NCBI RefSeq assembly: GCF_900143055.1
Contig: NZ_FRCW01000003.1
Span: 62,001-126,000, forward strand
Origin: Fibrobacter sp. UWR3
GTDB taxonomy: Bacteria > Fibrobacterota > Fibrobacteria > Fibrobacterales > Fibrobacteraceae
DNA length: 64,000 bases
Reading direction: 5' to 3'
The translations under genes were made by a program, and so were the position numbers. This document shows, piece by piece, positions 54,208 to 64,000 of this stretch. How positions within the stretch are numbered: the first letter of the stretch is position 1; every line of letters starts with the position of its first letter. The notes below the pieces were generated by a model, which did not search any database, had not been told where the DNA came from, and was given only the letters and a program-made list of their open reading frames with translations.

Positions 54208-54306
54208 TTAAGCGCGGACCGTCGTGAAGCTGAATGCTTCGCCGTCGGCGTCGTTGGCTTCGAGGCCATCGGCGGCAGCAGCCCACTTGATAGCGACTGC
54301 TTGCGT
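54208..54306 (-). pseudogene. ileS 3'-end fragment C (last ~33 codons)
   Basis: Nearly identical to the last ~99 bases of the intact ileS (58858-58956), including the end ADGEAFSFTTVRA and stop. It is cut off by the palindromic element at 54307-54386; beyond that, 54387-54397 still encodes YIAG, the residues that precede this point in the intact gene. It is not expressed as ileS. Confidence 0.85.
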
Positions 54307-54386
54307 TTGGCACTTCGTGCCCAACCTCTTCGGCTCGGCAATGTCCACGCAAGCGTGGCCGCTGCTCTCGCCTTGCGAGGTTGTCA
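54307..54386. mobile_element. Palindromic element E1 inside ileS fragment
   Basis: About 80 bases with a 5' hairpin GGCAC-TTC-GTGCC, the conserved block CCAACCTCTTCGGCTCGG, a central perfect palindrome CCACGC-AA-GCGTGG and the conserved block CTCTCGCCTTGCGAGGTTGTC-type end. The same layout recurs at 54788-54863 with different but still self-paired hairpin and core. It encodes no protein and lies between YIAG and TQAV codons of ileS, shifting the frame by one base. Confidence 0.75.
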
Positions 54387-54787
54387 CCTGCGATGTACTT
54401 ATTTCACAGCTTCGACGAAGACCTTTTCGCCATCTGCATCAGATTCCTGCAAACCAGCAGTAGAATCCTTCCATACAATAGCATTAGCTTGAGTCTCGCC
54501 CTTGATGTAAAATTCGTTTTCCTTCACGGCCTGCTTCAGCACTTCGCTTTCAGAATAAAGTTCAATGCTGATACGGTCAGAGATTGCAAAGTTCTGATCC
54601 TTACGGCGGTTCTGGATGCGGTTCACGAGTTCGCGGGCCACGCAGGCGCGGCGGAGTTCGTCCGTAATCTTCAAGTCCAGAGCCACGGTGAAGTGCTGGT
54701 TGGCTTCCACGGCCATGCCGTCGGCCACGATGCGGTTGAGCATCAGGCAGTCGGCACCGACTTCACCGAAGTCGAACTTGATGGTTT

Positions 54788-54863
54788 GCGCTTCGCGCCC
54801 AACCTCTTCGGCTCGGTCATGAGAAGACAAGTCTTCTCGCGACTCTCGCCTTGCGTGGTTGTC
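54788..54863. mobile_element. Palindromic element E2 inside ileS fragment, in frame
   Basis: About 76 bases: hairpin GCGC-TTC-GCGC, block CCAACCTCTTCGGCTCGG, central palindrome GAGAAGAC-AA-GTCTTCTC and the block CTCTCGCCTTGCGTGGTTGTC-type end. It replaces codons AGE of ileS by 28 codons without disturbing the frame. Its flanks match E1 while the hairpin and core differ in sequence with pairing kept. Confidence 0.78.
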
Positions 54864-55003
54864 GCCATTCTGCAGAGCCTTGATTTCATCAACCGTGAGG
54901 CTGTTCAGCTTGGCGGAAATCACCTTCATGTTCTTCACATAATCCGGGCCCTTCGCCTTGATGGCGAGGAAGTTCGGCTTGGCGGAGAGCTGCACGAGCT
55001 TGG

Positions 55004-55020
55004 TTTGCACTTCGTGCCAA
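55004..55020. repeat. Partial palindromic element E3
   Basis: TTTGCACTTCGTGCCAA equals the first hairpin of E1/E2 and replaces ileS codons just after VREMK in fragment B. Only this end of the element is present. Confidence 0.6.
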
Positions 55021-55052
55021 CTTCATTTCGCGAACGTTGAGTTCTTCTTTTT

Positions 55053-56546: not shown

Positions 56547-57449
56547 CTATTCCTCCTTTTTTTCTTCAGTATCAGCGATGCAGCGAACGTTAAATTTTCC
56601 CTTAAAATCCCATCTATCAATTTTTTCAACCCTAAGATCGACGTGATTTTCAATAGTATTTCCGTCGGAAAGGAGCCAATAACCTATTATCATAGATCCT
56701 GTTCCATATTTAAATTGACCATCTTCTTTATAGTAGCCCATTTTTTGACCCCAAAATTCACGAACAACAGAGCAATCTTCAAGAGCATGTTTATATGGTT
56801 CTCTTTCCTTGCAGTACTTTGATAGTTTGTTAATAAGTGTAGAAGCGTCTTTTTTATTTGGCAAACGCCATCCTTCGGGACATATATTTTTAGCCTCTAA
56901 AATGGTATAGAATCGACCTTTAGAACATTCGCTTTCGTCTTCAAGATAGCATATGCTAGTAGGCGTCTCTATGTTTAGATTGTTCGCCATCCAAATACTG
57001 TTTCCGATGCGAATAACTTTATGACCGTTGACTTCTTGAAGTCGTTGTAGCTCGCCTTTCCCCTGAACACAACGAACCGACCATAATTCTGACTTGAAAG
57101 CATACGCAAACTTATCTCCGTCTTTTACATAAGCACCTAAAGACAAGTCTTCTTTTTCTGTCGAAGACCAAGTATAATCAATGCTGGTATCAGAAACAAC
57201 GCCTTCCAATTCCTCTTTACTTGGTAGGCGCCAACCTTCAGGACAAGCAACGAGGGCTTCATCCCAAGAGTAGGAATCATTCCCTTTGTATTTCAGTTTC
57301 TCCGCCATCCACACTTGGTCTCCAATTTTGACGGTCTTATATTTTTGACCGTCACGCGGGTCGGTGAAAGATTCTCCACCGCAGGCGGAGAAAAGGAATG
57401 TCGTTGCAATAAAGGCTACGGCAGCGGCGATTCTATTGAGATGTTTCAT
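56547..57449 (-). CDS. FISUMP-domain lipoprotein with two repeats
   Basis: The start at 57449 follows GAGGACTG; 300 residues. A lipobox (IATTFLFSAC-G) precedes two Fibrobacter paralogous repeats: DGQKYKTVKIGDQVWMAEKL ... CPEGWRLPSKEE ... SVRC, then VIRIGNSIWMANNLN ... CPEGWRLPNKKD ... NVRCIADT. It is much shorter than the paralogue at 31405-33510 and lacks the long serine linker. Codon use is AT-rich like the rest of the island. It heads a four-gene unit; the long folded interval upstream may carry its leader. Confidence 0.85.
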   Translation of the reverse strand: MKHLNRIAAAVAFIATTFLFSACGGESFTDPRDGQKYKTVKIGDQVWMAEKLKYKGNDSYSWDEALVACPEGWRLPSKEELEGVVSDTSIDYTWSSTEKEDLSLGAYVKDGDKFAYAFKSELWSVRCVQGKGELQRLQEVNGHKVIRIGNSIWMANNLNIETPTSICYLEDESECSKGRFYTILEAKNICPEGWRLPNKKDASTLINKLSKYCKEREPYKHALEDCSVVREFWGQKMGYYKEDGQFKYGTGSMIIGYWLLSDGNTIENHVDLRVEKIDRWDFKGKFNVRCIADTEEKKEE

Positions 57450-57481
57450 ACAGTCCTCACTGGTTGGGTTAAAACCTAATG

Positions 57482-57774
57482 AGTTCCGCCCCTGCTCAAC
57501 AAGGAACTTCGCCAAATTTTGTATGAATACAAAAAAGGCGCAGATCGTTGCATTTATCCAAACGGGGCTCTAGACTGCCTCTACACGATAAACACAAACG
57601 ACCCACGCCCCAAAAGGGCTGTTGCCATTGGTCGATACGACCGTAAATCAGCCGAATAGCTGACACGACAAACCGAGATATGCCGAAAACGGCATACCTG
57701 CGTGAGCGTTCGCCTTGTCCTCGTGTATTTGGAAGTGTCTAGATTCCGTTTGGAGAACAAGAGCAAAAACTCTT
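57482..57774. ncRNA. Candidate structured non-coding element, strand uncertain
   Basis: Almost every part of this 290-base gene-free stretch folds. AGTTCC/GGAACT (57482-57508) and CGCC-TTTTGTAT/ATACAAAA-GGCG (57510-57540) are followed by a long closing stem: TCCAAACGG (57557-57565) pairs CCGTTTGGA (57746-57754) and TCTAGAC (57569-57575) pairs GTCTAGA (57737-57743). Inside it ACACGA/TCGTGT (57583-57588 with 57721-57726) encloses perfect hairpins GGTCG-ATA-CGACC (57630-57642), TCAGC-CGAATA-GCTGA (57648-57663) and TATGCCG-AAAA-CGGCATA (57679-57696). AAGAG/CTCTT (57759-57774) closes the right side. No known RNA family was recognised (not tmRNA, RNase P or SRP motifs). Confidence 0.5.
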
Positions 57775-57969
57775 TTACTCTTTAAAAATAACATAAAAAC
57801 GAGAAAAAAGTCCTAAAAGTTTACAAAAAAGTTCTTTTTTGCAATGAAAACGTTGAATTTTCGCTATTTTGTAAAGAAAAAGGGTATTCCAGGTTGTAAT
57901 GCATAAGGTTAAGCCGATTAAATCGATTGCTAAATCACAATGAAAAATCTATATTGTACAAGAGGTGAT

Positions 57970-58524
57970 ATGGCTGGATTTATTTCTGTACATATTGATG
58001 ATTTTACCCCTTGTCTCAAGGACAATTCCACAGGTGAGCTTGTGGATACCGAGGTCGTGCGCATTCGTCGGTCATCCTTTCTTTCAAAATACAACAAGCA
58101 AAATGGTTGGTATGTAAATTGGGGCTCTTTGGCAAAAAACTCTGAAATCTATGCTCTTGTTGTTAAGGGAACCGTAGATATTCAAGGGTTAGTTTCTCTT
58201 CAAAACAATTCTGACGCTAAGGCAATCTACATCCAGTGGATGTGCTCCGCCCCACAAAACAACAAACTGCTAACCGAAAACATTAAATATTCTGGTGTAG
58301 GCGGCCATTTATTTGCCATAGCCGGGAAAAAATCGGAAGATTATGGATACAACGGCGATGTATTTGGGTTTGCTGCAAGCGAAAAGTTACTTGGTCATTA
58401 TGTTGAAAAATTGGGAGCGGTTCCAATTTGCATGTTGCACCAATTCCATTTTGGGATTTTCAGTGAACAGATGAAAAATATTATGGAGGTATATACTTAT
58501 GACTGGACTGACGAAGAAATATAA
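57970..58524 (+). CDS. GNAT-like protein of a two-gene module, copy A
   Basis: The ATG at 57970 is preferred over 57940, with AGAGGTG just upstream; 184 residues. Its sequence is homologous along its whole length to the 62345-62902 product: PCLKD.TGE, NW, IQGLV, W.C.AP.NNK.LTE, then KYSGVGGHLFAIA, GFA, KLLGHYVEKLGA and EVYTYDW. The GVGGHLFA segment after a beta strand resembles the acyl-CoA-binding loop of GNAT acetyltransferases (G-x-G-x-x-L). This family assignment is my inference. Its last 26 bases overlap a 65-codon gene, as in the paralogous pair. A toxin-like acetyltransferase with its partner, or a housekeeping pair, are both possible. Confidence 0.7.
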   Translation: MAGFISVHIDDFTPCLKDNSTGELVDTEVVRIRRSSFLSKYNKQNGWYVNWGSLAKNSEIYALVVKGTVDIQGLVSLQNNSDAKAIYIQWMCSAPQNNKLLTENIKYSGVGGHLFAIAGKKSEDYGYNGDVFGFAASEKLLGHYVEKLGAVPICMLHQFHFGIFSEQMKNIMEVYTYDWTDEEI

Positions 58525-58696
58525 AGAATACCTCAACGACAGTTATTCGCCCATTGACGTCAATACATTACCCGCGTTCGTTGATATGCGGGCGATGTTT
58601 GAGTATGCGAAAAAGAAATGCGTCCAGATTTCGCAATTGACCAAAGAAGAGAAATCAAAATTTTTAATTCCAAACACAAGGGTTTCTGTCCCCTAG
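58499..58696 (+). CDS. Small partner protein of the module, copy A
   Basis: A 65-residue protein that starts inside the end of the GNAT-like gene (26-base overlap) with GGAGG 9 bases upstream. The C-terminal half (AMFEYAKKKCVQISQLTKEEKSKFLI) matches that of the 62167-62358 product in pattern (YA+K...I..LT.EE...F.I), while the N-terminal half differs. Short, charged and translationally coupled, it is a plausible antitoxin or adaptor. No DNA-binding motif is clear. Confidence 0.65.
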   Translation: MTGLTKKYKEYLNDSYSPIDVNTLPAFVDMRAMFEYAKKKCVQISQLTKEEKSKFLIPNTRVSVP

Positions 58697-58857: not shown

Positions 58858-61800
58858 TTATGCGCGGACCGTCGTGAAGCTGAACGCTTCACCGTCGGCG
58901 TCGTTGGCTTCGAGGCCATCGGCAGCGGCAGCCCACTTGATTGCGACTGCTTGCGTCTCGCCGGCAATATAAGCCTCGTTCTCCGCGACAGCCTGCTTGA
59001 AGACTTCGCTTGCAGAGAACAGCGTCACTTCGATCTTGTCGGTGATGGCATAGTTCTGGTCCTTACGGCGGTTCTGGATGCGGTTCACGAGTTCGCGGGC
59101 CACGCAGGCGCGGCGGAGTTCATCCGTGATCTTCAAGTCCAGAGCCACGGTGAAGTGCTGGTTGGCTTCCACGGCCATGCCGTCGGCCACGATGCGGTTG
59201 AGCATCAGGCAGTCGGCACCGACTTCACCGAAGTCGAACTTGATGGTTTCGCCAGCCTGGAGAGCCTTGATTTCATCAACCGTGAGGCTGTTGAGCTTGG
59301 CGGAAATCACCTTCATATTCTTCGCGTAATCCGGGCCCTTCGCCTTGATAGCAAGGAAGTTCGGCTTAGCGGAGAGCTTCACGAGCTTGGTTTCGTCTTC
59401 GAGGAACTTCATTTCGCGAACGTTGAGTTCTTCGAGGATCAAGTCCTTCATAGTCTCGGCGACGTTCTTTTCTTCGGTGCCGTGAGCAACCACCGTCATG
59501 CTGGCAATCGGCATACGGTTCTTTACGTTGTTCGTTGCACGGATCACACGGCCCATTTCGACCATACCACGCACCATGGCGATGCGTTCCACGAGCTTTT
59601 CGTCCATCAGGGACTTGTCAGCACTCGGGAATTCGCAGAGGTGCACGCTCACCGGAGCGTTAGCATCGACTTCGCGAACGAGAATCTGGTAGATTTCTTC
59701 GGCGAGGAGCGGGAGGAACGGAGCGAGAATCTTGGAGAAGTCAACCAAGACCTTGTACATGGTGGCGTAGGCGGCGTTCTTGTCGCCATCGTTTTCGGAC
59801 TTCCAGAAACGACGACGGCTGCGGCGCACGTACCAGTTCGTGAGGTCATCAACCGCGGCAATCACAGCAGGCACAACGTTGTACAGGCGGTAAGCCTTCA
59901 TTTCCACTTCAACCTTGGCGGCCAAATCCTGCAGCGTTGCAAGCATCCAGCGGTCAAGTTCATTCTCGCTCTTGACTTCTTGCCCCGGCTTCCAGTTGAG
60001 CTGGCCCTTGGCGGCATCGGCATTGTGGTTAGACACAAAGAATGCCACAGCGTTCCAAAGCGGGAGCATCACCTGTTTGACGATGCCCTTCACGCCTTCT
60101 TCACTGAAGCGCAGGTCTTCAGCCTTCAAGGCAGCGGAGTTGATCATGAACAAGCGAATGGCGTCGGCACCCGTGCGTTCGATGAGGTCGTTCGGGTCCG
60201 GATAGTTGCGCTTGGACTTACTCATCTTGGAACCGTCTTCGGCCAAGATAATACCGTTCACAATCACGTTCTTGAATGCGGGCTTCTGGAACAAGGCGTT
60301 AGAAAGCACCGTCAGCGTGTAGAACCAACCGCGGGTCTGGTCGAGGCCTTCGGCGATGAAGTCCGCCGGGAAGCTGCGTTCCACCAGTTCCTTGTTTTCG
60401 AACGGGTAATGGCGGCTGGCATACGGCATGGAGCCGGATTCAAACCAGCAGTCGAAAACTTCCGGCGTACGGCGGTAAACCTTGCCGTTCTTTTCGATGG
60501 TGAGCTTGTCCACAAAGTGCTTGTGCAAGTCGTCGAGCTTCACGCCGGTGAGTTGCTGGAGTTCTTCAATGGAGCCAACAGCAATCATGTCGCCGTCATC
60601 AGAGAGCCACACTGGAATCGGCGTACCCCAGAAACGGTTACGGGAAAGGTTCCAGTCGCGGGCACCTTCGAGCCACTTGCCGAAGCGTCCGTTCTTGATG
60701 TGGTCCGGCACCCAGTTCACGGTCTGGTTGTTTTCGACCATCCATTCCTTCAGGGTCTTGGTCACGCCGTCCTTGCTCGTGACAGGCGCGTCAATCTTGA
60801 GGAACCACGTCTTGAGGGCGCGGTAAATCAGAGGAACGCCGGTACGCCAGCAGTGCGGGTAGCTATGGACAATCACGTCCTGCTTGAACACGCGGCCCTG
60901 TTCCTTGAAGTAGCGGATAATTTCCTTGTCGGCTTCCTTCGCACCGAGGCCCTTCCACATCGGGACCTTGTCGGTGAACTTGCCTTCGGTATCGAGCGGG
61001 TCGAAAAGGCCGAGGTCGAGTTCAGCACCCTTCTGGAAGTCTTCTTCACCGAAGGAGGGAGCGGTATGCACGGCGCCAGTACCATCTTCGGTACTCACGT
61101 AGTCGGCGGGGTAAATCTTGTAGTGGCGGGACAGCTGGTCCGGCGTCACGAATGCATCGGAAATGCGGGAGAGCGGCTCGTAGTCCTTGCCCACGAGTTC
61201 AGACCCCTTGCAGGTATCGACGATGTTCGGGTTCTTGAAGTAAGCGGCGGTACGGCTTGCGGCAATCCAGTACTTCTTGCCATCCTGTTCCACAAGGTTG
61301 TAGTCCATGTCCGGGCCCACAACGATGCAGAAGTTGGAGTACAGCGTCCACGGGGTCGTCGTCCACACGAGGATGCTCGTGTCCTTGAACTTGGGCTCGT
61401 TCGAGTTAATCGGGAAAATCAGCGTGAGGGACGGGTCCTGACGGTCCTTATAGCCCTGGTTCGTTTCGAAGTTCGAAAGCGGAGTCGCGAGAGCCGGGCT
61501 GTACGGCTGGATGCGGTAGCCCTGGTAGATGAGGCCCTTGTCGAAGCACTGCTTGAACACCCACCACACAGATTCCATGAAGTTCTTGTCCATGGTCTTG
61601 TAGCCCTTGTCGAAGTCCACCCAGCGGCCCATGCGGCGCACGGTCTTCTTCCATTCGCTGGTGTACTTGAGCACCTTGCCGCGGCAAGTTTCGTTGAACT
61701 TGTCCACACCGAGCTTCTGAATTTCGGCAACGCCAGCGAGACCGAGTTCGTTCTGCACGAGAGATTCAATCGGAAGGCCGTGGCAGTCCCAACCGAAACC

Positions 61801-62043
61801 GCGGGGAACCTTTTTGCCCTTCATGGTCCAGTAACGCGGAACGATATCCTTGATGGTACCGGCAAGCAAGTGACCGTAGTGCGGAAGGCCCGTTGCAAAC
61901 GGAGGGCCATCGTAGAAAGTGTACGGTTCAGTTTCCGGACGGGAGTCCAGCGACTTCTTGAACGATTCATCCTTATCCCACAGGGCGAGCACGCGCTCTT
62001 CTATTTGTGGAAAGGTCTCTTCTTTCTTTACTTCACGAAACAT
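58858..62043 (-). CDS. ileS: Isoleucine-tRNA ligase
   Basis: A 1,061-residue enzyme that charges tRNA-Ile with isoleucine. Its length and sequence fit the eukaryote-like type 2 IleRS, often less sensitive to mupirocin (family knowledge). Seen: HIGH-type motif PHYGHLLAG (residues 54-62), GWDCHGLPIE, the editing domain (SEWKKTVRRMGRWVDFDKGY and the TEDGTGAVHTAPSFGEEDF threonine-rich region), KMSKS motif DGSKMSKSKRN near residue 604, an anticodon-binding domain and a C-terminal beta domain ending FSFTTVRA. The gene is intact. Its last ~185 codons are represented again, in altered form, about 4 kb downstream, which marks ileS as an insertion site. Confidence 0.97.
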   Translation of the reverse strand: MFREVKKEETFPQIEERVLALWDKDESFKKSLDSRPETEPYTFYDGPPFATGLPHYGHLLAGTIKDIVPRYWTMKGKKVPRGFGWDCHGLPIESLVQNELGLAGVAEIQKLGVDKFNETCRGKVLKYTSEWKKTVRRMGRWVDFDKGYKTMDKNFMESVWWVFKQCFDKGLIYQGYRIQPYSPALATPLSNFETNQGYKDRQDPSLTLIFPINSNEPKFKDTSILVWTTTPWTLYSNFCIVVGPDMDYNLVEQDGKKYWIAASRTAAYFKNPNIVDTCKGSELVGKDYEPLSRISDAFVTPDQLSRHYKIYPADYVSTEDGTGAVHTAPSFGEEDFQKGAELDLGLFDPLDTEGKFTDKVPMWKGLGAKEADKEIIRYFKEQGRVFKQDVIVHSYPHCWRTGVPLIYRALKTWFLKIDAPVTSKDGVTKTLKEWMVENNQTVNWVPDHIKNGRFGKWLEGARDWNLSRNRFWGTPIPVWLSDDGDMIAVGSIEELQQLTGVKLDDLHKHFVDKLTIEKNGKVYRRTPEVFDCWFESGSMPYASRHYPFENKELVERSFPADFIAEGLDQTRGWFYTLTVLSNALFQKPAFKNVIVNGIILAEDGSKMSKSKRNYPDPNDLIERTGADAIRLFMINSAALKAEDLRFSEEGVKGIVKQVMLPLWNAVAFFVSNHNADAAKGQLNWKPGQEVKSENELDRWMLATLQDLAAKVEVEMKAYRLYNVVPAVIAAVDDLTNWYVRRSRRRFWKSENDGDKNAAYATMYKVLVDFSKILAPFLPLLAEEIYQILVREVDANAPVSVHLCEFPSADKSLMDEKLVERIAMVRGMVEMGRVIRATNNVKNRMPIASMTVVAHGTEEKNVAETMKDLILEELNVREMKFLEDETKLVKLSAKPNFLAIKAKGPDYAKNMKVISAKLNSLTVDEIKALQAGETIKFDFGEVGADCLMLNRIVADGMAVEANQHFTVALDLKITDELRRACVARELVNRIQNRRKDQNYAITDKIEVTLFSASEVFKQAVAENEAYIAGETQAVAIKWAAAADGLEANDADGEAFSFTTVRA

Positions 62044-62166: not shown

Positions 62167-62358
62167 CTAGCCTATCTTAAACTGCAGAATCTCTTCGGCG
62201 GTCAGTTCTTCAATTTTTTTCCCGACACGCCTTGCATATCGTCCAAGCTCCAAGAGATTCAATTTGCTCTTTGGAGGATTTTTATACGGATTCGGAGGAG
62301 CCATATACTCTTCCATAGAATCCGCCAAAATAACAGCGGGTTTCCTAATTCCACTCAT
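62167..62358 (-). CDS. Small partner protein of the module, copy B
   Basis: A 63-residue protein whose ATG lies 14 bases inside the GNAT-like gene, with GGAGG and the same spacing as in copy A. The C-terminal half (LELGRYARRVGKKIEELTAEEILQFKIG) shares the YA+K...I..LT.EE...F.I pattern with copy A. The N-terminal half is different (PPNPYKNPPKSK). Confidence 0.65.
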   Translation of the reverse strand: MSGIRKPAVILADSMEEYMAPPNPYKNPPKSKLNLLELGRYARRVGKKIEELTAEEILQFKIG

Positions 62359-62902
62359 AAGTATAGACCTCCAAAAGTTTTAATGATGCCTCGCCATCAA
62401 TGTAGAATTGATAGGGATGCAAGGCGCCCAAATAAGACGCTCCCAAAACTTCAATATAGTGATTTAAAAGCTTTTTGTTAAGGGCAAATCCATGAACAGT
62501 TCCTTCATACCCCCACGCAAGAGAACGATCCACAGCAACAGCAAAAAGATGCCCTCCAACACCGCTATATTTGGGACTTTCCGTAAGTGTTTTGTTGTTA
62601 TGCGGAGCAGCACAAGCCCAATGCAAATAGGCAGCGTGAGCATCCACATCATTCCGCACTCCAACAAGCCCCTGAATTTCGTTATTCTCTTTCAAGGCGA
62701 GAGCATACACATCTACTTCTTTGGGGACATTGATCCAATTGATTCCCCACCCATCCTTTTCCTTGAATTTTCTTAGAAACGAGCGACTTTCAATTTTGAA
62801 TACCACAGTTTCTTTGATTTCGCCTGTTTGAATATCCTTGAGACAAGGAACAATTTCATCCAGCCAAATGTCAACACATCCGCTATTCAGCGTATCATTC
62901 AT
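62345..62902 (-). CDS. GNAT-like protein of a two-gene module, copy B
   Basis: A 185-residue soluble protein with a strong GGGAGGAGTG site, homologous end to end to 57970-58524. Shared blocks: PCLKD.QTGE, SFLRKF, GW.INW, YALAL, EIQGLVGVRND, W.CAAPHNNKTLTE, KYSGVGGHLFAVA, VHGFALNKKLLNHYIEVLGA and EVYTYEW. The two proteins are clearly paralogous but well diverged, so they were acquired separately or separated long ago. One copy lies on each side of ileS, in opposite orientation, each with an overlapping small gene. Confidence 0.7.
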   Translation of the reverse strand: MNDTLNSGCVDIWLDEIVPCLKDIQTGEIKETVVFKIESRSFLRKFKEKDGWGINWINVPKEVDVYALALKENNEIQGLVGVRNDVDAHAAYLHWACAAPHNNKTLTESPKYSGVGGHLFAVAVDRSLAWGYEGTVHGFALNKKLLNHYIEVLGASYLGALHPYQFYIDGEASLKLLEVYTYEWN

Positions 62903-63095: not shown

Positions 63096-64000
63096 CTACC
63101 GAGACAGATCAAAATAGTCATAAGTATCTTCGCTTGCAAAGATACCATTATCAGATAAATTCTTTCTTACGGTTTCAATGGCCATTTCCGATTGATCAAT
63201 TCCAATCCACTTTCGACCCAATTGACTAGCAGCAACAAGAGTTCCTCCAGAACCTGCGAAACAATCCATAACAATAGAGTCTGCATTAGAAGACGCCTTA
63301 ATTATCGTTTGAAGCATTTCATGATTCTTTTCTGTCGGATAAAGCGGATTTATCGGATCCTTAAATGTCCAAATATCCTGCATTTTCTTTGTAGAATGTT
63401 CATCCGCATAATTAATTTTTCGAGGATTGCCTTTTGCAGACCATTCTATTAGGCCCTGTCGATCTAGTTCTTCTAATTCCTCTACACTACAACGCCAATG
63501 TCTACCTGGAGGAGGCAACAAGCCCTTAAATTTTTGGGATGATTTTCCATCCTTCGTTTCTCCCGGTGCATGTATAGGAACAGTTGTGTAATGACGTCCC
63601 TCTTTATCGACTTTTGCATAGAGCTTAGCAATATCTTCTTCCGACATGGGTTCTCTTGGTTCGTGCCAAATCGGCTTCTTGCCCTTTGTGTAGAAGAGAA
63701 TCATGTCCTTAATATTGCCATAGCCGATTCTTGAAAAATTTTTCGGATTACATTTAATTCTCGTAATATCATTTCTGAAATTCTCTATTCCGAAAACTTC
63801 ATCAAGCATACATTTCACATAATGACCAATTTTGTAGTCAATATGCAGATAAAACGAACCACGATCAGAAAGTAAATCGTAAATTATTTCTACGCGTTCT
63901 TGAAGAAACTGTATAAAATCTTTACCCTTTAATTTATCAGAGTAGGCGATTTTCCCAGAAGACGAATTACTTATTGTGGATACGCGACCCGTCAAGTCTT
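63096..64000 (-). CDS. DNA adenine/cytosine-N4 methyltransferase, partial at 5' end
   Basis: The frame is open to the right edge, so the N-terminus lies outside the window. Seen: GSFYLHIDYKIGHYVKCMLDEVFG, then KNHEMLQTIIKASSNADSIV and the S-adenosylmethionine-binding motif MDCFAGSGGTLVAA near the C-terminus. Having the FxGxG motif late implies that the catalytic DPPY-like motif comes earlier, the order of beta-class N4/N6 methyltransferases such as type III Mod subunits. It would methylate adenine or cytosine within a specific DNA site. Strongly AT-rich, like the island. Whether a restriction gene lies beyond the edge cannot be seen. Confidence 0.85.
   Translation of the reverse strand, partial: DLTGRVSTISNSSSGKIAYSDKLKGKDFIQFLQERVEIIYDLLSDRGSFYLHIDYKIGHYVKCMLDEVFGIENFRNDITRIKCNPKNFSRIGYGNIKDMILFYTKGKKPIWHEPREPMSEEDIAKLYAKVDKEGRHYTTVPIHAPGETKDGKSSQKFKGLLPPPGRHWRCSVEELEELDRQGLIEWSAKGNPRKINYADEHSTKKMQDIWTFKDPINPLYPTEKNHEMLQTIIKASSNADSIVMDCFAGSGGTLVAASQLGRKWIGIDQSEMAIETVRKNLSDNGIFASEDTYDYFDLSR

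Follow-up and report, generated by a model that had tools for sequence, protein, structure and literature searches.

A family of structured RNA leaders with predicted riboswitch-like features precedes exchangeable genes in the Fibrobacter family

What is the densely folded, non-coding segment that lies in front of a FISUMP lipoprotein gene in Fibrobacter sp. UWR3? The segment (positions 57482-57774) is part of a 64,000-nucleotide stretch of contig NZ_FRCW01000003.1, the whole of which we analyzed and refer to as the window. The original prediction held that so many nested stems could hardly arise by chance, and it proposed a small RNA, a regulatory leader, or a single-stranded DNA substrate for a mobile element. 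We compared the folding energies of both strands of the 293-base segment with those of 200 dinucleotide shuffles. The minus strand folds at -127.5 kcal/mol (z -8.8) and the plus strand at -96.8 kcal/mol (z -5.5), and both are more stable than 200/200 shuffles. Because the minus-strand fold is far better, and because this is the strand of the adjacent FISUMP gene, we read the RNA from the minus strand. A plus-strand reading was rejected for its weaker fold, with conservation and gene context also favoring the minus strand. The predicted long-range closing stem (57557-57575 with 57737-57754) is real and consists of two stacked helices, P1 (8 bp) and P2 (7 bp), with a small internal loop between them. 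The inner stems and hairpins described as nested within it are also present.

The fold of the segment held up, but its borders did not. The conserved RNA spans 57775 to 57451, takes in the ribosome-binding region, and stops a single base short of the ATG (57449) that starts the FISUMP lipoprotein gene. From this arrangement, we infer that minus-strand transcription would make the element the 5' untranslated region of that gene. The features of this copy, which belongs to the class we call class I (see below), are collected in Table 1. In the predicted fold, P1-P4 form a long rod-like domain from which P5-P7 and P9 branch off, and P0 closes the base of this domain. The 5' hairpin listed as an alternative to P0 forms in folding once the 3' strand of P0 is kept unpaired. 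Two sequence blocks upstream of the RNA recur ahead of most class I copies, and this recurrence makes the stretch that contains them a candidate promoter.

Table 1. Features of the class I leader in the window and of the gene behind it. Percentages are paired alignment cells among 61 class I copies.
Feature	Position	Strand	Evidence or detail
Whole conserved class I leader	57451..57775	-	cmsearch with R1: 320.2 bits, E 2.8e-95, positions 1-317/317
Promoter-like stretch upstream of RNA	57776..57835	-	TTTTTGTAAACTTTT (about 57816-57830) and TTATTTTTA (57783-57791)
5' hairpin GAG (57770-57772)/CUC (57761-57763), alternative to P0	57761..57772	-	sequence
P0 5' strand GCUCUUGUUC, partner 57488-57497 GAGCAGGGGC	57755..57764	-	88.9% paired
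P1 5' strand, partner 57557-57564 (outer part of closing stem)	57747..57754	-	99.2% paired
P2 5' strand, partner 57569-57575 (inner part of closing stem)	57737..57743	-	96.0% paired
P3 5' strand, partner 57582-57588	57721..57727	-	98.4% paired; both-sided changes in 5/7 pairs
P4 5' strand GGCGAACGCUCACGC, partner 57591-57608 GCGUGGGUCGUUUG	57700..57716	-	conserved core; 99.6% paired, mostly invariant
P5 hairpin AGGUAUGCCG-UUUU-CGGCAUAUCU	57676..57699	-	94.9% paired; both-sided changes in 6/10 pairs
P6 (57667-57671/57622-57626), closes variable branch	57622..57671	-	94.4% paired, double changes
P7 hairpin inside P6 branch	57659-57664/57647-57652	-	91.0% paired, double changes
P9 mini-hairpin CCC/GGG, invariant core	57609..57618	-	100% paired, zero variation
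P10 hairpin GCGCC...GGC, upper stem U-rich	57511..57539	-	helices 10-11, 91-95% paired
Anti-Shine-Dalgarno ACUCA	57480..57484	-	can pair with 5' GAGU or SD UGAGGA; sequence
Shine-Dalgarno (SD) GAGGA of FISUMP gene	57454..57458	-	sequence; 4 nt ahead of ATG at 57449
Cargo gene, FISUMP lipoprotein, 300 aa	56547..57449	-	Pfam Fib_succ_major E 7.8e-20

We compared the element with known RNA families. None of the 4227 models in Rfam 15 matched the 64-kb window at gathering thresholds, and relaxed E-values near the element gave nothing convincing (best E 5.2, a miRNA). Rfam also had no match at 12 further loci carrying copies of classes I-III, or at three more (E 0.1). The window contains no tRNA or tmRNA. 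Our literature search, outside which most subscription journals fell, found no description of such an RNA and nothing on regulatory RNA in Fibrobacter.

Related copies are abundant within the Fibrobacter family. Searching the UWR3 genome at the DNA level gave four copies close to full length plus several shorter ones. We aligned and folded 27 copies to build a covariance model, R1 (317 positions, 66 pairs), which gave 13 matches in the same genome, two of them weak. R1 detected copies in 37/37 sampled congeners, as did the DNA search. In a phylum-wide sample, it found the RNA in 66/67 Fibrobacter genomes and in 10 genomes from three other genera of the same family, with zero matches outside that family. 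We therefore dropped the view that the RNA is restricted to the genus. Fibrobacter genomes usually have several copies each. In the large scans, scoring was confined to the best candidates, so the copy counts obtained there are minimum values. Scanning GTDB genomes by pattern gave, among the matches listed, Fibrobacter-type records and a few small contigs from 'Bacteroidales' bins. The contigs in question (L101, L148, L154, and L168) look mis-binned, since L154 matches the Fibrobacter island and ileS fragments and L168 has the same score as a Fibrobacter copy, and we rejected a spread beyond the family. IMG/VR and the phage and plasmid collections contained no matches, and a phage, plasmid, or viral origin was rejected for that reason. 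Judged from their sequences, the copies make up a new family of structured RNA leaders that are large, at about 230-320 nt, and have so far been found only in the Fibrobacter family.

We scored an 81-pair structure against 61 class I copies, which had been aligned with plain MAFFT and not fitted to the structure. Across these pairs, 93.7% of cells were paired, and 39/81 pairs had changed on both sides. Compensatory cells numbered 450, compared with 139 in shuffled alignments and 37-79 for slid structures; none of 500 shuffles reached the observed values. Alignment cells are phylogenetically non-independent, yet the slid controls retain this relatedness and fall far short. Both-sided changes affect five of eight pairs in P1, where all four Watson-Crick types occur at several positions, and five of seven in P2. 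The conserved secondary structure is backed by compensatory changes. As these changes conserve the variable helices, chance is excluded as the source of the fold. Homologues and covariation, whose joint absence was to count against the original prediction, are both clearly present.

Not all helices vary in this way. Hardly any change is seen in the central P4 helix or in the CCC/GGG mini-hairpin, which would be expected of a functional core. Changes in P0 are mostly one-sided owing to its nearly invariant 5' strand, so P0 rests more on retained pairing and cross-class comparison than on covariation. The anti-SD arm pairs with the SD region (helix 12) in 67% of cells, a value partly due to alignment offset (the window's own row is shifted by one), and double changes occur in 6/6 of its pairs.

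The position of the RNA relative to genes was examined in 126 non-redundant copies, which fall into three classes by simple sequence rules. The associated ORFs were chosen heuristically by length and SD. The 84 class I copies, at about 315 nt, have an upstream AT-rich block that is conserved and a terminal hairpin, CUCCAU...AUGGAGG. Their start codons lie between -20 and +40 nt from the model end in 69/84 copies, most often at 1-6 nt. The same range, measured from the RNA end, holds for 16/17 copies of class III (about 230 nt), giving 85/101 for the two classes together. A conserved hairpin, TTGACATAGC(T/C)CCGTACCGAATGGTTCGGAGCGACCGGAA, sits about 45 nt upstream of the RNA and precedes nearly all class III copies (L083, L085, L087, and L098, among others). 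Class II comprises 25 copies of about 300 nt. Of the 22 with an ORF, 19 have their gene start 180-400 nt downstream, and the RNA is followed by a second conserved domain whose opening partially repeats the 5' end of the RNA itself. At L035, L036, L073, L124, and other class II loci, this domain lies 0-330 nt after the RNA and stops at the methyltransferase start codon. Its sequence suggests a tandem leader.

We read the RNA as a probable cis leader, located on the sense strand immediately upstream of coding genes. Among the roles first proposed, a regulatory leader fits the sense-strand location, the start codon near the RNA end, and the hairpin over the Shine-Dalgarno region. The compact fold, a size typical of stable RNAs, and the several copies in one genome would also suit a small RNA that is processed or independently transcribed, acts in trans, and lies upstream of accessory genes by chance. 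We consider this improbable: a sense-strand gene follows nearly every copy examined, the conserved region reaches the ribosome-binding site and start codon at a fixed distance, and there is no terminator-like site in 57300-58000. Practically no credence is given to a transposon end or MITE-like repeat, to which the multicopy state alone would point. Such elements take positions and orientations independent of genes, but both are fixed here relative to start codons; the helices show compensatory changes, and phages, plasmids, and IMG/VR are devoid of matches.

We surveyed the cargo genes behind the leader, which span 42 protein families. FISUMP proteins account for 22/64 class I cargos, and others include collagen-like lipoproteins, zinc-ribbon/TM2 proteins, a UvrD/GajB-like helicase, and an OLD/GajA-like ATPase. 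Nearly all class II cargos are DNA methyltransferases or restriction-modification (R-M) enzymes; Pfam assigned them (n=19) to 11 C5-methylases, 4 EcoRI-type, 2 N6/N4, 1 MmeI-type, and 1 Tsp45I endonuclease, while class III cargo consists mainly of type IIG/ISP R-M proteins. That the RNA is multicopy and also stands ahead of R-M genes goes beyond the original prediction. The UWR3 genome itself carries the leader on at least two operons with C5-methylases (two further genes at contig ends could not be judged). The idea of a general FISUMP leader was rejected on numbers: 137 FISUMP domain matches in this genome stand against 13 RNA matches, and the majority of the latter lie ahead of other genes; only a few FISUMP genes are possibly behind a leader. 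A class II copy lies just outside the window at the equivalent of 65120-65419 (G000:C3:127120-127419, minus; L084:8121-8420). It heads a Tsp45I-type endonuclease gene (L084:7131-7931), after which comes an N6/N4 DNA methylase gene (63096-63998 and beyond). The next operon is therefore an R-M system that has this RNA family in front of it.

Leaders and cargo genes do not form fixed pairs. Among 39 leader pairs that are >=90% identical, 26 precede non-homologous proteins (BLASTP E 1e-4), and the identity of leaders with unrelated cargo reaches 99.6%. Some loci differ in the cargo alone, between flanks that are collinear on either side, and the break falls at or near the leader end. L103 and L108 share 93.5% identity upstream and 95% downstream and diverge about 70 nt ahead of the start codon; between L138 and L170, homology persists until 4 nt beyond the start codon. 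Beside ileS, where the window's own copy lies, the picture is similar: L088 and L113 have the leader at roughly 96% identity but other genes after it. These results show that leader and gene are decoupled, the leader staying in place as the cargo is swapped. Ordinary homologous recombination explains this exchange.

Integron attC sites act as folded single-stranded DNA. The leader could likewise be a DNA-level site for recombination or integration of cassettes, with RNA structure as a by-product; exchange at or near the leader end and the different genes behind copies in different strains would fit such a site. We find this highly improbable. The strand that is conserved coincides with the sense strand of the cargo; the fold is much better on it, and the ribosome-binding site and start codon are built in. 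G-U pairs are frequent and retained, which fits RNA rather than DNA, and homologous recombination already accounts for the exchange. No linked recombinase was noticed incidentally. An integron cassette with attC was rejected specifically because the element sits at the 5' end of a gene, with its ribosome-binding site and start codon, and not at a cassette 3' end. The single-stranded substrate for a mobile element in the original prediction is likewise not supported, as copies are placed non-randomly relative to genes and the phage, plasmid, and viral collections lack them.

Further features were noticed around ileS (58858-62043). The 3' end of this gene is duplicated as fragments (54208-55047 and 58858-59433, 88-94% identical) across an island at 55.0-58.8 kb, as if a foreign ileS 3' end had been brought in with an integrated accessory segment. 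Homologous two-gene units flank ileS in opposite orientation, at 57940-58696 (+) and 62167-62902 (-). Their 194- and 185-aa proteins are 48% identical, and each is overlapped by a partner of 63-65 aa. These proteins look acetyltransferase-like by eye, Pfam found no match in either unit, and the units could be toxin-antitoxin-type pairs.

A leader function is well supported, and we considered how it might operate. The 5' strand, GAG-UUUUU-GCUCUUGUUC, hardly varies and has two possible partners, namely itself (GAG/CUC) or GAGCAGGGGC followed by ACUC (P0). The ACUC(C) stretch can in turn pair with the 5' GAG(U) or with the Shine-Dalgarno sequence. The 5' GAG is present in 61/61 class I rows, and an anti-SD of the (A)ACUC type follows P0 in 50/61. 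Class III preserves the same relation in other letters, for example 5' GAGAU, 3' AUCUC, and SD GAUAAGGA. In our model, a putative ligand or partner would stabilize the domain, allowing the 5' strand GAGUUUUUGCUCUUGUUC to pair with GAGCAGGGGC and ACUC to form P0. P0 would then occupy the anti-Shine-Dalgarno bases and leave the ribosome-binding site free. If the domain were not stabilized, the 5' strand would close its own hairpin, and the freed anti-SD would pair with the SD and turn the gene off. Recombination would exchange the gene behind this constant socket, such that lipoproteins, R-M systems, and other accessory genes come to share one regulatory RNA.

We evaluated this model with ViennaRNA. 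The median gain from forming P0 is about 5 kcal/mol. Copies with a mostly paired SD number 49/53 without P0 versus 36/53 with P0 enforced. As the SD remains paired in 36/53 copies even with P0, the energetic evidence for a switch is modest to moderate. A constitutive structured 5' UTR would protect or position the mRNA and supply newly acquired genes with a promoter and ribosome-binding site, with no switching and no signal. The diversity of the 42 cargo families, which share no ligand theme, is compatible with that reading, as is the promoter-like block that travels with the leader together with the ribosome-binding site. We nevertheless regard it as unlikely, because a ribosome-binding-site enhancer needs neither some 80 covarying or invariant pairs nor an invariant core, and because an anti-SD that matches both the SD and the 5' strand recurs with different letters in class III. 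Our favored reading, at a probability of roughly 75%, is a riboswitch-like leader in which P0 competes with the 5' hairpin and an SD-sequestering hairpin, and which serves as a constant socket for exchangeable genes. Translational switching is likely, and the leader probably controls whether downstream messages are translated.

No single metabolic theme among the downstream genes names a ligand. Many class II and III cargos use S-adenosylmethionine, which makes SAM or SAH natural first candidates; the class I cargos do not point to either. More tentatively, and with doubts that outweigh our confidence, one fold might serve the arms-race gene pool across the lineage, sensing a common signal, possibly phage attack or cell stress, and gating translation of any defense or surface gene placed behind it.

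We compared the leader with known regulatory systems. Riboswitches with translational expression platforms are a general class (a review is PMC10043782). Like them, the Fibrobacter RNA is a 5' leader with a highly conserved fold, an invariant core, and alternative pairings that may free or hide the Shine-Dalgarno sequence, and one RNA class serves several genes per genome. On these sequence features we class it as riboswitch-like rather than as a riboswitch. It differs in that its ligand is putative, that its cargo is accessory, exchangeable, and drawn from many unrelated families rather than one pathway, and that it is limited to one bacterial family. GOLLD, ROOL, HEARO, and OLE are similarly large, elaborately folded, and patchy across lineages, but the Fibrobacter RNA has no Rfam match and leads straight into a coding gene's start. 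The processive antitermination leaders put RNA and EAR are also structured and precede horizontally acquired or long accessory operons. They act on RNA polymerase, whereas the Fibrobacter RNA ends in an SD hairpin that would point to translation. C proteins, the controllers of R-M operons, provide a precedent for a common regulator ahead of many different R-M systems; the Fibrobacter regulator would instead be a cis RNA leader, and it also heads non-R-M genes.

The leader represents a large and strongly supported RNA family, new to Rfam, in important fiber-degrading gut bacteria. It raises the testable question of which signal is common to dozens of accessory and defense genes through one RNA fold. 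If our reading is correct, a single leader before many unrelated R-M systems, retained as the gene after it changes, would be an uncommon form of host control over foreign, potentially self-harming genes. On the more tentative reading of a common signal, R-M systems and surface lipoproteins would be co-regulated by a riboswitch-like RNA that stays put while the genes behind it are traded.
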